From Microbacterium sp. CBA3102 (GTDB taxonomy: Bacteria > Actinomycetota > Actinomycetes > Actinomycetales > Microbacteriaceae), in contig NZ_CP042412.1 in NCBI RefSeq assembly GCF_007954505.1, positions 3,658,001 through 3,722,000 of the forward strand: a stretch of 64,000 nucleotides of DNA, given 5' to 3'. The position numbers were made by a program, and so were the translations under genes. Under the pieces are notes generated by a model. That model did not search any database. It worked only from the letters and a program-made list of their open reading frames with translations, and was not told the DNA's origin. This document shows positions 18,849 to 47,776 of the stretch, piece after piece; within the stretch, counting starts at the first letter, position 1; the number at the start of each line of letters is the position of its first letter.

Positions 18849-20365
18849 GCTCTGCGGCGGTGCGGAGGAGGCCGATGAGCCTGCAGACACGGCTGATGAC
18901 GGCCGTGATCGGGTTCGTGTCGCTGATCCTCATCATCGTCGCCATCATCACGAGCGCGACCCTGGGGAAGACCATGGAGGATCAGCTCGATCAGAAGCTG
19001 AGCACCTCCGCGCGCCAGGTCGCGGGATGGGCGCAGAATTTCTCCCCGAGCGACGCGACCGCGTCCAACATCCTGTCGGGGCAGAACGTGCGGTATTCGG
19101 GGCTCCTGCTGGCCGTGGTCAGCCCCCTCACCGGCGCCTCCGGAGTCGTCGTGACGAACACTCCCGGCGACGAGCTCACGGGCACACTGCAGCCGCTCGA
19201 CGCGACGCAGATAGCCGAGATCGCCGCGGCGCTGCACGGCACCTCGGTGGCCACGGTCTCGATCTCCGATCTCGGCTCCTACCGGGTCATGGCACTGAAC
19301 ACCGCGAGCGGCGTCGGCGTCGTCACGGGTCTCCCCCGCGACGAGATCCAGAATCAGCTCGCCCAGCTGCTCACCGTCATCGCCCTCGCGACGATCGGCG
19401 GTCTCATCCTGCTCGCGTTGACCACAGCGGTCACCATCCGCGTGGGACTGAGACCACTCCGTGCCGTCGCGATGACGGCGACCCGGGTCGCGAACCAGCA
19501 GCTCGATCGCGGTGAGGTGACCATCACGGAACGTGTTCCTTCATACGAGGCCGATCCGCGCACCGAGACCGGACTCGTCGGGGCATCGCTGAACAAGCTC
19601 CTCGATCATGTGAACAGCTCGCTCGCCTCGAGGCAGAAGAACGAAGAGCGGATGCGACGCTTCGTCGCCGACGCCAGTCATGAGCTGCGCACCCCGCTCG
19701 CCTCCATCCGCGGCTACTCGGAGCTGTCGCTGCGCGCGCTGCATCAGTCCGATCGGAGCGCTGAGCGCCCCGAGGTGATCGAGAGCACCACGACCTCCCT
19801 CGAGCGCATCCAGGCGCAGTCGCTGCGGATGACACGACTCGTCGAGGACCTGCTCCTGCTGGCGCGCCTCGATGAGGGACGCGAGCTCGTCTACAGCACG
19901 GTGGACCTCACGCAGCTGGCCCTCGAAGGCCTCTCCGATGCGCGTCCCACGGCCGTGGACCACCACTGGCAGATCGAGGTCCCCGAAGAGCCCGTCACCA
20001 TCGTGGGCGACGCGGGGCGGATGCACCAGGTGGTCGCCAACCTCCTGGCGAATGCGCGCACGCATACCCCCGCAGGGACGACCGTCACGCTCAGCGTCAT
20101 GCAGGACGGCGAGGACGCGGTGCTGCGGGTCCACGACGACGGCCCCGGCATCGACCCCGCCATCCGCGACGAGCTGTTCGCTCGCTTCGCCCGCGGTGAC
20201 AGCTCACGAGCCCGTCAGACCGGCGGGACCGGGCTCGGCCTCGCGATCGTCAAGGCCATCGTCGAAGGCCACCACGGCACCATCGACGTCACCAGCGAAC
20301 CGGGCGACACGACCTTCACGGTCCGCATCCCGGCCACGCCGGCGAGCGCGGCCTCCGAGGCCTGA
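18845..20365 (+). CDS. Sensor histidine kinase
   Basis: 506-aa membrane kinase partner of the adjacent regulator. TM1 (about residues 17-40) and TM2 (about 177-198) enclose a roughly 135-residue extracytoplasmic sensor domain. A HAMP domain follows, then the H-box FVADASHELRTPLASIRGY with His279, N-box NLLANARTHTP, G1 HDDGPGID, and G2 GGTGLGLAIVKAIV. All catalytic boxes are intact. GTG 18845 overlaps the regulator stop. It ends in convergent orientation to the AbiEi-like gene with a palindromic repeat between. Confidence 0.94.
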   Translation: MSSAAVRRRPMSLQTRLMTAVIGFVSLILIIVAIITSATLGKTMEDQLDQKLSTSARQVAGWAQNFSPSDATASNILSGQNVRYSGLLLAVVSPLTGASGVVVTNTPGDELTGTLQPLDATQIAEIAAALHGTSVATVSISDLGSYRVMALNTASGVGVVTGLPRDEIQNQLAQLLTVIALATIGGLILLALTTAVTIRVGLRPLRAVAMTATRVANQQLDRGEVTITERVPSYEADPRTETGLVGASLNKLLDHVNSSLASRQKNEERMRRFVADASHELRTPLASIRGYSELSLRALHQSDRSAERPEVIESTTTSLERIQAQSLRMTRLVEDLLLLARLDEGRELVYSTVDLTQLALEGLSDARPTAVDHHWQIEVPEEPVTIVGDAGRMHQVVANLLANARTHTPAGTTVTLSVMQDGEDAVLRVHDDGPGIDPAIRDELFARFARGDSSRARQTGGTGLGLAIVKAIVEGHHGTIDVTSEPGDTTFTVRIPATPASAASEA

Positions 20366-20408
20366 GGCGCATCGGACCGCGCGGCTCCCGTCCCGTCCCG
20401 TCCTGCCC

Positions 20409-20493
20409 GTGCGTTTGTCGGGAGATCGAACGGTTGCAGGTCGGGGCGGACCGTTCCTCCCGACATCCGTCCGATCTCCCGACGAACACGCAC
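20409..20493. repeat. Palindromic GTCGGGAG repeat, copy A
   Basis: Intergenic inverted repeat: arm 20409-20433 is nearly complementary to 20467-20493. The core box GTCGGGAG (20417) has its complement CTCCCGAC at 20476, and another CTCCCGAC at 20457 exactly 19 nt away. It lies between the convergent kinase and AbiEi-like genes, 16 nt past the latter's stop. Related copies are at 21451 and 47701. Confidence 0.85.
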
Positions 20494-20509
20494 AAGGATG
20501 GTCCGCAGG

Positions 20510-21343
20510 TCAGTCACGCGCCCGGAGACGGAGGATGGCCGCGATCACCGCTGCTTCGACGGTCGGCCACGCGTGCACGATCTGCGCGTAGTCGAACCGC
20601 AGTGTCTCGTAGCCGAGGACCGAGGCGGCAGCATCCCTCACCAGATCCCGATGCCGGTGCCCGGGGGCCTCATGATTGCCCTTCCCATCCGCCTCGAGGA
20701 TCAGAAGGCCGTCGAGGACGAAGTCGACCTTGCCGACGGTGGGGATGCACACCTGGCACTCCAGCGTGATGCCGCTCAGATGCAGTCGGAGCCTCAGGAG
20801 CGACTCGAGGCCGCTGTCGGCGTCGGACCGCGCCAGATCGACGAGCCAGTGGGCGCGAGCGGGCAGGCGGCGGCGGATGCGGTGACGCGCGGCGGAAGAG
20901 ATCTTGCGCTGCGTCAACGCGGACTCGAGCGCGGCGAAGAACACCTCATCGCCAGCGCAGCGGTACACGTGGATGAGCACCTCCTCCAACGGTGCGAGGC
21001 CGACTCCCGCCCGCCCGGCGTCGTAGTGCCCGACGCACTCGCAGTCCGCGTGATGAACACGCCCGTTCCCTCCGAGCCACACGTGCGGGGGACCGTCCGC
21101 GGACAGCACCCAGATGCCGTGCAACCGCAGGGCGTGCGTGCAGGTCAGCGCCCCGCCGTGAGCCGCGGCCTCCTGCAGACTCAGGTCAGCGGTCGGCACG
21201 GCGAACACGCCCGGTCTCACCCGCACGAGCGCGCCCGCCCGCACCTCGTCGGCCCGCATCCGACGGGTGATCCCGTAGCGCTGAAGAAGGGTTCCCCGGA
21301 CGACTCCGCCGTGCTGGGCGGTCACTGCTGCGGCTCTGAGCAT
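20510..21343 (-). CDS. AbiEi-like antitoxin-domain protein with Vsr/DUF559-like endonuclease domain
   Basis: 277-aa two-part protein. Residues 1-60 resemble the winged-helix AbiEi_4 domain (RGTLLQRYGI..., VRVRPGVFAVP). Residues 195-277 resemble a Vsr/DUF559-type PD-(D/E)XK nuclease: ESLLRLRL, KVDFVLDG, ILEADGKGNHE, RDLVRDAAASVLGYETLRF. No AbiEii-type toxin gene lies next to it, so a standard type IV toxin-antitoxin pair is not supported. ATG 21343 follows CAGGAT by 6 nt. Palindromic repeats lie on both sides. Such proteins are common in this family of bacteria and their job is unknown. Confidence 0.75.
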   Translation of the reverse strand: MLRAAAVTAQHGGVVRGTLLQRYGITRRMRADEVRAGALVRVRPGVFAVPTADLSLQEAAAHGGALTCTHALRLHGIWVLSADGPPHVWLGGNGRVHHADCECVGHYDAGRAGVGLAPLEEVLIHVYRCAGDEVFFAALESALTQRKISSAARHRIRRRLPARAHWLVDLARSDADSGLESLLRLRLHLSGITLECQVCIPTVGKVDFVLDGLLILEADGKGNHEAPGHRHRDLVRDAAASVLGYETLRFDYAQIVHAWPTVEAAVIAAILRLRARD

Positions 21344-21450
21344 TCGACGATCCTGCCTTCGCTGCGGCCGCCTCCGACGCCCGGAATGCCCGTTTGTGGA
21401 CACACGGCGACCACGTTCGCGTTCTGCAGGAAGACACGCCTCGCACGCCT

Positions 21451-21519
21451 GCCGGGAGGTTTCACGGACGTCGGGTCGAAACCGGGAGATTGCCCGACAT
21501 CCGTTCAAACTCCCGACGG
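21451..21519. repeat. Palindromic GTCGGGAG repeat, copy B
   Basis: Inverted repeat with arms 21451-21475 and 21493-21519. Boxes: GCCGGGAG (21451) and GTCGGG (21470), 19 nt apart; TGCCCGAC (21491) and CTCCCGAC (21510), again 19 nt apart. It lies upstream of the AbiEi-like gene and 44 nt past the stop of the redox operon's neighbour on the other side. The right arm matches copy A over about 26 nt (GTCGGGAG..GACGGATGTCGGG pattern). Confidence 0.85.
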
Positions 21520-21562
21520 ATGCACCACGCGGGGGCGGGGCGGGCCGGGGCGGGGCCGGGGG

Positions 21563-23146
21563 TCAGTAGCCCGCGAAGGCGTCGGTCGTGAGGCTGCGAG
21601 CCTTCTGCAACGCGGGGGCGAGGTCGGCGATCAGCCGCGGCGGGCCCGAGATGAAGGCGTGGCGCGTGCCGAGGTCGGCGACCGTGCGCTCCAGGATCTC
21701 CGCATCCAGGCGCGCTCCCTGCGCCCAGGCCCAATGCGCGGGCAGATCCGTGGGCTCGTCGCGGGTGAACACGACCGTGCGCACGCCGGTCGCGGCGAGC
21801 TCGTCGCGGAACGCGAGTTCGGAGGCCTGGGACGCCACGTAGACGAGCACCACATCGCGTTGCTGCCCCGTGGCCCGCAGCTGACGCAACTGCGACACGA
21901 ACGGCGTCACCCCGATGCCCGCCGCCACCATCAGCACCGGACTGTCTCCGCGCGGCAGGATGAAGTCGCCCCAGGTGCCGGTGACCGCGAAGGTCGCTCC
22001 GGGCTCTGCCTCGGCCAAGGCGCGCTTGTAGCTCGAGGGATGCTTCTGGTCACCGTTCTTGTACGCGATGCGCAGCGTCGGCAGATCAGCCGGGGCGGAC
22101 ACGATGCTGAACTCCCGCCGGGTTCCGCGGGCATCGGGACGGCGGTGCGGGACGTCGAGCTCGAGATACTGGCCGGGGAGGAACCGCACGCGCCCCTTCG
22201 CCCGGAAGGTGAGCTCCTGAGCGGTCGGGGTGACGAACGCACGACGCTCGAGCACCAGCCGCACCGAACCGCGGAGGGCGAAGACGAACGCCACGAGGTT
22301 GCCGATGAGCAGCGCGCGCTCCTGCCCGAGCGTGAAGAGACCAGCCACCGAGATCGGCCAGCCGGCGAGCACGCCCACGACGACGGCCACGACGAGCTGC
22401 TGGCGACGCCGAGGCGGGAGGGTCAGCGGCTCGGAGAGCATGAACGCACCGAGGAACAGGAAGGGCGACTGCAGCACGGCGAACTGCAGTGCGGTCGACA
22501 GTTCGAATCCGATGTCGAACTGCGTGGCTTGCACCGCCTGGCGCACCACCGAGGTCGCCACCGCGACGAACAGGAAGACCAGCACCACACGCACCTTCTC
22601 GGTGCGCCACAGCACCGCGAGGCCCAGCACCGCCACGGGGATGGTCAGCACCGGCGTCCCCACCCACCACGACGAGGAGGTGCCCAACCACTCGAAGGCT
22701 CCGAAGGCTCCCAGGATCGAGACCACGGCCGCACCGAAGGCAGCGGGGTTGAAGATGTGTCGGCCGCGCCACGCGATGAGGTACTTCGACACGCTCGCCA
22801 CGGCGCCGGCGAGGGCGAGCCCCAGCAGGGCGCCCGGCGCGAGGCCGGGGCGGAGCACGAACAGCAGGATCAGGGCGGTGACGAGCGACGATTCGATACG
22901 CCACGGGAGGCGGAGGATGCGCTGAGCTACGGCGTCGACCGCGGAGATGACGACCGCCAGCACCAGGAAGGACGCCACCATCTCCCCCGGTGTCGGTGAG
23001 ACGATGACCCCGAGCAGCGACAGCACGAAGGCCGTGACCGCGAGCGCGATGAGCGCGAAGAGCACGAGGCGGTACATCGACAGGGAACCCAGCACCGCGA
23101 GGACCCGTTGGCGTGCGGCGGCGAATGACGTGATCACGGTGTCCAC
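21563..23146 (-). CDS. RnfD/NqrB-like membrane domain fused to ferredoxin-NADP reductase-type domain
   Basis: 527-aa fusion. Residues about 20-290 hold eight to ten membrane helices with an RnfD/NqrB-like signature (SKYLIAWRGRHIFNPAAFG). Residues about 300-527 form an FNR-type domain with FAD motif REFSIVS and NAD(P) motif AAGIGVTPF. It probably moves electrons from cytosolic NAD(P)H through the membrane to the FMN lipoprotein of the same operon (inference). The covalent-FMN threonine motif of true RnfD was not found. GTG 23146 has a GGGAAG site; it starts 6 nt after apbE. Confidence 0.88.
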   Translation of the reverse strand: MDTVITSFAAARQRVLAVLGSLSMYRLVLFALIALAVTAFVLSLLGVIVSPTPGEMVASFLVLAVVISAVDAVAQRILRLPWRIESSLVTALILLFVLRPGLAPGALLGLALAGAVASVSKYLIAWRGRHIFNPAAFGAAVVSILGAFGAFEWLGTSSSWWVGTPVLTIPVAVLGLAVLWRTEKVRVVLVFLFVAVATSVVRQAVQATQFDIGFELSTALQFAVLQSPFLFLGAFMLSEPLTLPPRRRQQLVVAVVVGVLAGWPISVAGLFTLGQERALLIGNLVAFVFALRGSVRLVLERRAFVTPTAQELTFRAKGRVRFLPGQYLELDVPHRRPDARGTRREFSIVSAPADLPTLRIAYKNGDQKHPSSYKRALAEAEPGATFAVTGTWGDFILPRGDSPVLMVAAGIGVTPFVSQLRQLRATGQQRDVVLVYVASQASELAFRDELAATGVRTVVFTRDEPTDLPAHWAWAQGARLDAEILERTVADLGTRHAFISGPPRLIADLAPALQKARSLTTDAFAGY

Positions 23147-47700: not shown

Positions 47701-47776
47701 ACTTGTCGGGAGGATGGGCGCTTGTCGGGAGGAATCGCCCTTTTGCTCCGACATATGAGCAAACTCCCGACACGTG
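47701..47776. repeat. Palindromic GTCGGGAG repeat, copy C
   Basis: Boxes GTCGGGAG at 47705 and 47724 (19 nt apart) face CTCCGAC at 47746 and CTCCCGAC at 47764. Same design as copies A and B, with different spacer sequence. It lies between the convergent MFS and tatD genes, 25 nt before the tatD stop, and may also act as a terminator. Confidence 0.85.

Follow-up and report, generated by a model that had tools for sequence, protein, structure and literature searches.

Palindromic repeats bracketing AbiEi-DUF559 nuclease genes in Microbacterium suggest a previously unrecognised nuclease-and-repeat system

REPtrons, in which REP or REPIN sequences are paired with a RAYT (TnpA-REP) enzyme, combine a nuclease gene bordered by palindromes, a dispersed family of cognate repeats, co-evolution of enzyme and repeat and a mainly vertically inherited chromosomal gene, according to the available portions of the papers that describe them (PMC8266576, PMC8049555, PMC3733652). 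In the accessible text of one of these sources, the only enzymes named as dedicated to dispersed bacterial palindromes are the RAYTs, and the CGTC-tagged REPs, which like the repeats studied here form palindromic families, are described as having no dedicated transposase of their own (PMC3733652).

The locus analyzed here lies in a stretch of 64,000 nucleotides of the Microbacterium sp. CBA3102 chromosome (NZ_CP042412.1, positions 3,658,001 to 3,722,000), which we call the window. As in a REPtron, a nuclease gene is bordered by cognate palindromes of which other copies are dispersed in the genome. It differs from a REPtron in its enzyme, which is of the AbiEi-Vsr/EDxHD and not of the HUH/Y1 type, in its repeat, a four-box palindrome of ~70 nt where REPs are 20-40 bp long and GTAG-tagged, and in the occurrence of several paralogous nuclease-repeat pairs per genome. 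The RAYT domain Y1_Tnp (PF01797) was found in 0 of 14 genomes, including that of the window, with a control search that was positive in 5 of 14 well-known genomes, and the GTAG tag is absent from the consensus of the window's repeat family (the other families were checked by eye only). Given the failed HUH test and the missing tag in the window's repeat, the pair is not a REPtron, though by analogy it may function like one.

Three further systems resemble parts of the locus. The nearest named fold to the catalytic domain is that of the EDxHD homing endonuclease I-Bth0305I, whose own target is very long; the enzyme binds nearly 60 bp as a dimer, as far as the available part of the source goes (PMC3943268), which suits a four-box palindrome of ~70 nt. 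The window protein differs from it by an AbiEi-like DNA-binding part and a dispersed repeat family, and was not seen in an intron or intein. The nuclease fold is also that of the very-short-patch-repair endonuclease Vsr, to which the window protein adds the AbiEi region and a repeat-bracketed gene. Finally, its N-terminal 172 residues resemble the antitoxin of the AbiE type IV toxin-antitoxin systems, in contrast to which the window gene has a nuclease domain and no AbiEii toxin gene next door. No earlier description of this nuclease-repeat pairing was found in the literature searched, most subscription journals lying outside it; judged from titles and partial texts, none of its papers that mention DUF559 is about repeats by title, and none brings AbiEi and DUF559 together. 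The data presented below suggest a previously unrecognised nuclease-and-repeat system.

The window gene, its product and its repeats

The original prediction, made from the letters of the window, was of a nuclease gene bracketed by two palindromes, which our coordinates confirm (Table 1). Copy A had been placed 16 nt past the stop of the gene, a distance borne out by its symmetric arms, which span 20409-20493. Copy B is indeed upstream of the gene, at a computed distance from the start that is slightly shorter than the 108 nt first proposed. The ATG was retained as start codon because homologues align from there; the mechanical open reading frame opens upstream, at TTG 21508.

Table 1 Features of the locus and of the dispersed copy in the window (positions in the window)
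Feature	Position	Strand	Remarks
Repeat copy A	20413-20488		Downstream of nuclease gene, between convergent genes
AbiEi-DUF559 (Vsr/EDxHD-type) nuclease gene	20510-21343	-	277 aa, ATG at 21343, stop at 20510
DUF559 nuclease domain, Vsr/EDxHD homing-endonuclease fold	20519-20821 (residues 175-275)	-	Structure comparison
AbiEi-antitoxin-like winged-helix region	20828-21343 (residues 1-172)	-	Foldseek 6y8q E 1.3e-5
Repeat copy B	21447-21522		Upstream of nuclease gene, about 104 nt before ATG
Third repeat copy, dispersed, same family	47701-47776		Paired-box search and covariance model

DUF559 scores above the Pfam cut-off in the window protein (E 4.8e-5) and AbiEi_4 below it (E 0.011), and among 24 aligned homologues Pfam matches at E<=0.01 were obtained in 23 for DUF559 and in 14 for AbiEi_4. 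An AlphaFold2 (AF2) model of the protein (pLDDT 92.5) splits into residues 1-172 and 175-275. Structure comparison matched the first part to the AbiEi antitoxin 6y8q with a middling Z of 7.1 across 166 residues, and the second to 3hrl (Z 10.2), I-Bth0305I (Z 9.6) and Vsr (Z 7.7). These are the winged-helix antitoxin-like and Vsr/DUF559-like domains that had been proposed. Residues E180, D207, D219 and D233 are retained in 101-102 of 102 homologues. The window protein thus has an EDxHD/Vsr-type catalytic fold with conserved acidic residues, a match made on fold and residue conservation and not on superposed active-site residues, and because these residues are nearly invariant catalysis by the nuclease domain is probably under selection. 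In the AbiEi-like region C68, H87, H106 and C129, a possible metal site, are likewise kept in 101-102 of the 102 homologues.

The gene is flanked by a histidine kinase gene (HK/RR) and by a ferric-reductase-like (FNR)/ApbE operon, a location called HK-FNR below. As anticipated, it has no toxin partner there: no adjacent AbiEii nucleotidyltransferase was found among the neighbours examined in the window, nor was a methylase. The AbiEi profiles of PADLOC gave a weak match only (best E 6.3e-5), and the plasmid and phage collections contained no homologue of the window protein at E<=1e-5.

Both copies bracketing the gene fold better than shuffled sequences (z -4.7 for A and -2.5 for B). Lone GTCGGGAG boxes occur in the window at chance level (7 found, 8.25 expected) and the paired GTCGGGAG layout above it (6 matches, 0.19 expected); a search with a spacer of 6 instead of 5, whose matches count as no more than a chance control, gave at least 14, in 11 of 59 genomes. 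A covariance model built from six of the genome's own copies, R2, matched the 3.886-Mb chromosome at 13 distinct positions with E<=0.01, counting the copies used to build it. In the genus R2 matches 57 of 99 Microbacterium genomes, a count to which related palindromes with other boxes contribute, as the model is not fully specific and found such palindromes in G033, G036 and G096, among others. Rfam gave no match at E<=0.1 in 20300-21650. The position of the third copy of Table 1 is filled in G108 (by gap length) and in G186 (aligned), and the copy was not seen in G238, G249 and G029.

Bracketing, layout and lineage of the repeats in homologues

Matches to the window protein at E<=1e-30 occur in 234 of 366 Microbacterium genomes, and DUF559/AbiEi genes in 31 of the 137 actinobacterial genera sampled. 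Bracketing was tested by comparing the 320 nt upstream of each gene with the 320 nt downstream, a locus passing when its best match was above 99% of shuffles. Matching repeats bracket the gene at 59 of 70 loci whose products are 56-100% identical to the window protein, and in nine of the 11 failing loci one or both flanks hold a palindrome that scores higher than 99% of shuffles. Among 32 further loci, which were judged by a fixed score above 30 that is looser than the named-set and class-wide tests, 27 passed, at least one of them (L269) on simple-sequence DNA; they include 13 of 17 paralogues at only 30-36% identity, whose repeats have no obvious sequence in common with that of the window. 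With the stricter test, 61 of 76 loci from a named set of public assemblies passed, against 4 of 149 control ORFs in the same contigs (of 80 loci, 4 were left out because a flank was too short). This set overlaps the genomes of the 70- and 32-locus sets, so that neither its 61 of 76 nor its four-box counts given below are independent of them. Class-wide, 30 of 54 loci are bracketed after one of 55 was left out for its short flank, 19 of 39 being bracketed outside Microbacterium. Upstream of the gene, the repeat typically stops about 100 nt short of the start. In all, the nuclease gene usually lies between two palindrome copies in Microbacterium and in some related bacteria.

This recurrence across homologues supports the layout first proposed, like that of RAYTs and REPINs with an unrelated protein. 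The co-occurrence of gene and repeat across genomes, suggested as a check, was found in most of the Microbacterium homologues looked at and, in the proportion given above, outside the genus. As to the converse check, for genes that stand without repeats, most loci are bracketed, and 11 of 70, 5 of 32 and 15 of 76 have no detectable pair. L446 (G546), L441 (G418) and L425 (G655) are bracketed homologues from other families and orders within the class, and their repeats are long and differently designed. A paralogous clade at site 3 (L245, L253, L254 and L255), which adjoins a PstB-like ABC gene in L253, has by eye a different repeat type, AAAACCCAGACC ... GGCGTGTCG, and includes another nuclease of the window's own genome (G000:3847939-3848754).

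A layout recurs in Microbacterium in which each arm of the repeat has two direct boxes 19 nt apart, mirrored in the other arm, with a span of about 67-70 nt. Identical 6-mers 19 nt apart were found in 124 of 204 flank windows against 10.2 expected, and in 13 of 30 windows in the distant paralogues; the signal outside Microbacterium is weak, with 12 of 78 windows against 6 expected. In the named set, 79 of 155 gene-flank windows have the full four-box layout, versus 4 of 920 control windows, and 51 of 78 examples span 67-70 nt. By eye, several families have a core ACnnnTG followed by a family-specific TCGGGAG, CAGGACC, CACGACC or CATGACC. We dropped an argument for a duplex substrate, drawn from boxes conserved around free spacers, because the match of the boxes between arms is built into the four-box test and the bases between the boxes are themselves partly palindromic (49-77% match versus 25-41% by chance); the data are thus compatible with a duplex site and with a hairpin.

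The sequence of the repeat varies from one nuclease lineage to another. When 102 loci are compared two by two (5151 pairs), the flanks match in 90-100% of those at 70% protein identity or more and in 0-1% below 40%, and the flank-protein correlation (rho 0.36) was reached by 0 of 500 permutations. Since the flank windows hold some neighbouring DNA, we repeated the comparison on repeat segments alone, for 86 of the 102 loci. A repeat is then common to 73 of 79 same-site pairs at 70% protein identity or more, and to 157 of 468 at 60-70%. Of 1090 pairs from different sites that are below 40%, 23 have a repeat in common, with a weak trend across sites (rho 0.26). As every pair at 70% or more is from the same site and the trend across sites is weak, much of the match between repeat and protein is accounted for by descent of the cassette as a whole.

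Chromosomal sites and dispersed copies

The 102 homologues are for the most part concentrated at a small number of sites: 24 are at HK-FNR, 21 between fumC and phoH (further loci have one side in common with this site) and 14 between an alanine-racemase gene and a SIS-domain gene, and there are others. The name fumC is our assumption from a Pfam Lyase_1 match, and we likewise take the SIS-domain gene, from its Pfam match, to be glmS. Protein clades mostly stay at fixed sites, and the gene itself therefore moves rarely. At HK-FNR it is reversed in 6 of 24 cases. The search for an empty site, also suggested with the original prediction, was successful at this location, where G060 has neither gene nor repeat in a gap of 44 nt and G005 a single repeat and no gene. 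The gene was absent from all 31 HK-FNR loci of a non-random survey, made up mostly of genomes without a close homologue or with the homologue elsewhere; the HK gene was located on the far side in 28 of these loci and not found in 3. No unambiguous target-site duplication was found, the boundary in G060/G237 showing no more than a GC-rich 9-mer, which may just as well be the scar of a deletion.

At fumC-phoH the window's genome (G000) and G108, which are labelled as the same species, agree closely in their flanks (99.2% and 99.1% identity across about 1.28 kb to either side), and between these have cassettes that differ in nuclease lineage and in repeats and lie in opposite orientation. The G108 protein finds its four closest matches among the nucleases of another site (60% to L199). 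Both whole-cassette recombination and insertion after loss fit this difference.

We searched 13 gene-flank repeat families (F1-F13) in 11 genomes and, leaving out reverse-strand duplicates and nuclease-flanking copies, retained 82 dispersed rows among the matches listed (at least 150). Within these matches, 55 of the 82 copies are in the genome of the cognate nuclease (14 in G132, 10 in G116, 7 in G001, 6 each in G034 and G309, 5 in G021, 4 in G322 and 3 in G000, two of which had F13 as their best-matching query and are taken as cognate, F6 and F13 being one type by eye). The other 27 copies listed have no cognate nuclease among those examined and are, bar one, of types F4 and F13, in G309, G034, G083 and G118. 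F4 and F13 bracket fumC-phoH nucleases in their source genomes, and the hosts of these non-cognate copies now carry another nuclease at fumC-phoH; we infer that the copies are relics of residents that have been replaced. Five of the 13 families (F1, F5, F7, F8 and F10) have no dispersed copy among the matches listed, but F1 does have dispersed copies by covariance model R2. G083 and G034 each hold nine F13-type repeats among the matches listed, and their own fumC-phoH nucleases carry other repeat types.

Against crude ORF calls, 23 distinct copies comprise 7 between tandem, 7 between convergent and 0 between divergent genes, 5 inside an ORF and 4 unclear cases, dispersed copies being mostly intergenic. 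Joining the flanks of 13 dispersed copies showed that presence and absence differ among relatives. G000 and G186 have the copy at 1094085, which is absent from G238, G249, G029 and G108, its absence in the last of these looking like a secondary loss; the copy at 2186387 is present in G000 and G249 and absent from G238 and G029. At G000:1094085-1094149 (L087) a 65-nt CCGACACGCCAGATG-type repeat lies in frame and without a stop within an ORF of ~390 aa, lactonase-like by eye, and is absent from the orthologue in G238, G249 and G029. A copy at G000:1117595-1117750 (L005, L074) has tandem extra half-units, and the corresponding gap in G108 is shorter. Two candidates at the 2007789 site were rejected: the match, plausible by eye, of the G108 repeat there to the fumC-phoH nuclease of G108 scored 33 against a shuffle maximum of 36, and the insert of ~1 kb in G186 is, by eye, an unrelated methyltransferase-like gene.

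Explanations and significance

The explanation we favour, to which we give about an even chance, is that the locus is one cassette of a nuclease-repeat system in which the nuclease cuts its cognate repeat and so drives both the spread of the repeat and the exchange of cassettes, as an analogue of REP/RAYT without an HUH enzyme. An AbiEi-type winged-helix protein with a Vsr/EDxHD-type domain would recognise the four-box palindrome of ~70 bp, bind it as a dimer or higher oligomer, on duplex or hairpin, and nick or cut there. Repair of the break would copy the repeat to new, mostly intergenic places and would allow entire repeat-nuclease-repeat cassettes to be acquired, deleted, flipped or exchanged at a small number of fixed sites in the chromosome, every nuclease lineage having its own repeat sequence. 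The genomic associations, the presence/absence variation and the cassette swap are observed, and binding, cutting, the repair route and a causal part of the nuclease in the spread are proposed. Counting against this explanation are the lack of a clear target-site duplication, the descent of whole cassettes behind much of the repeat-protein match, the non-cognate copies of F4 and F13, the five families with no dispersed copy among the matches listed, the rare movement of the gene and the weak 19-nt signal outside Microbacterium. The three roles put forward originally, among them repeat mobility and a nuclease whose helix-turn-helix reads the boxes, are made likelier by the presence/absence variation, the cassette swap and the four-box layout, and are kept here as proposals. 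A wider proposal, which we would place marginally below an even chance, is that these are independently evolved actinobacterial counterparts of REP/RAYT of a non-HUH kind, that is, an AbiEi-EDxHD family with several members per genome and private box codes in a common four-box palindrome, whose repeats spread and which compete by cassette replacement at fixed sites, leaving the repeats of displaced nucleases behind as relics.

Several observations would also be expected of a free-standing cassette resembling a homing endonuclease, which cuts cassette-free alleles at a few sites and is copied in by recombination, the palindromes being its target or borders and the dispersed copies by-products. 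Its catalytic domain is near the EDxHD homing endonuclease fold, protein clades track fixed sites, HK-FNR exists in empty, single-repeat and filled states, and the fumC-phoH swap took place within near-identical flanks. However, multi-copy, lineage-specific dispersed families are unexpected from one-site homing, as are solo copies present or absent at unrelated sites, and we regard this explanation as rather unlikely while still giving it real weight. A chromosomal regulator, whose AbiEi-like domain uses the bracketing palindromes as operators and the dispersed copies as regulatory or terminator sites, with an incidental nuclease domain, seems to us distinctly unlikely. AbiEi autoregulates, and the AbiEi-like fold, the regular position of the upstream copy about 100 nt from the start and the mostly intergenic location of dispersed copies by crude ORF calls agree with such a role, but a matching copy is also found downstream of the stop, the residues of the active site hardly vary, the same crude calls put 5 of 23 distinct copies inside ORFs and presence differs between close relatives. 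We discounted a role as simple terminators or operators in view of the downstream copies, the lineage-specific repeats and the conserved catalytic residues.

The weak PADLOC AbiEi matches, and a swapping of alleles that recalls the turnover of restriction systems, would fit a defence or selfish-retention element in which the nuclease attacks incoming DNA or that of rival cassettes and the host-specific repeats are decoys, operators or self-markers. Against it, the neighbours examined include no toxin or methylase partner, and the lack of a homologue in the plasmid and phage collections is neutral at best; we hold it to be improbable. The repeats and the nuclease genes alike are found preferentially in gaps between gene ends, and much of the repeat-protein match is shared descent, as expected if both merely accumulated in permissive intergenic sites by coincidence, with no functional link. 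The control counts disfavour this explanation (4 of 149 ORFs and 4 of 920 windows in the same contigs), and distant paralogues at other sites have bracketing pairs of their own (13 of 17), which leaves coincidence a very small probability.

The cassette swap at the level of strains makes the favoured nuclease-repeat system directly testable. If that explanation is true, the lineages would offer a naturally occurring set of proteins, each paired with its own site, for the study of a DNA-recognition code, and possibly tools for site-specific nicking, and the DUF559/AbiEi genes of almost a quarter of the actinobacterial genera sampled would be given a function. The system would also be a second, unrelated pairing of an enzyme with a repeat, meaning that nuclease-linked palindrome families arose more than once.
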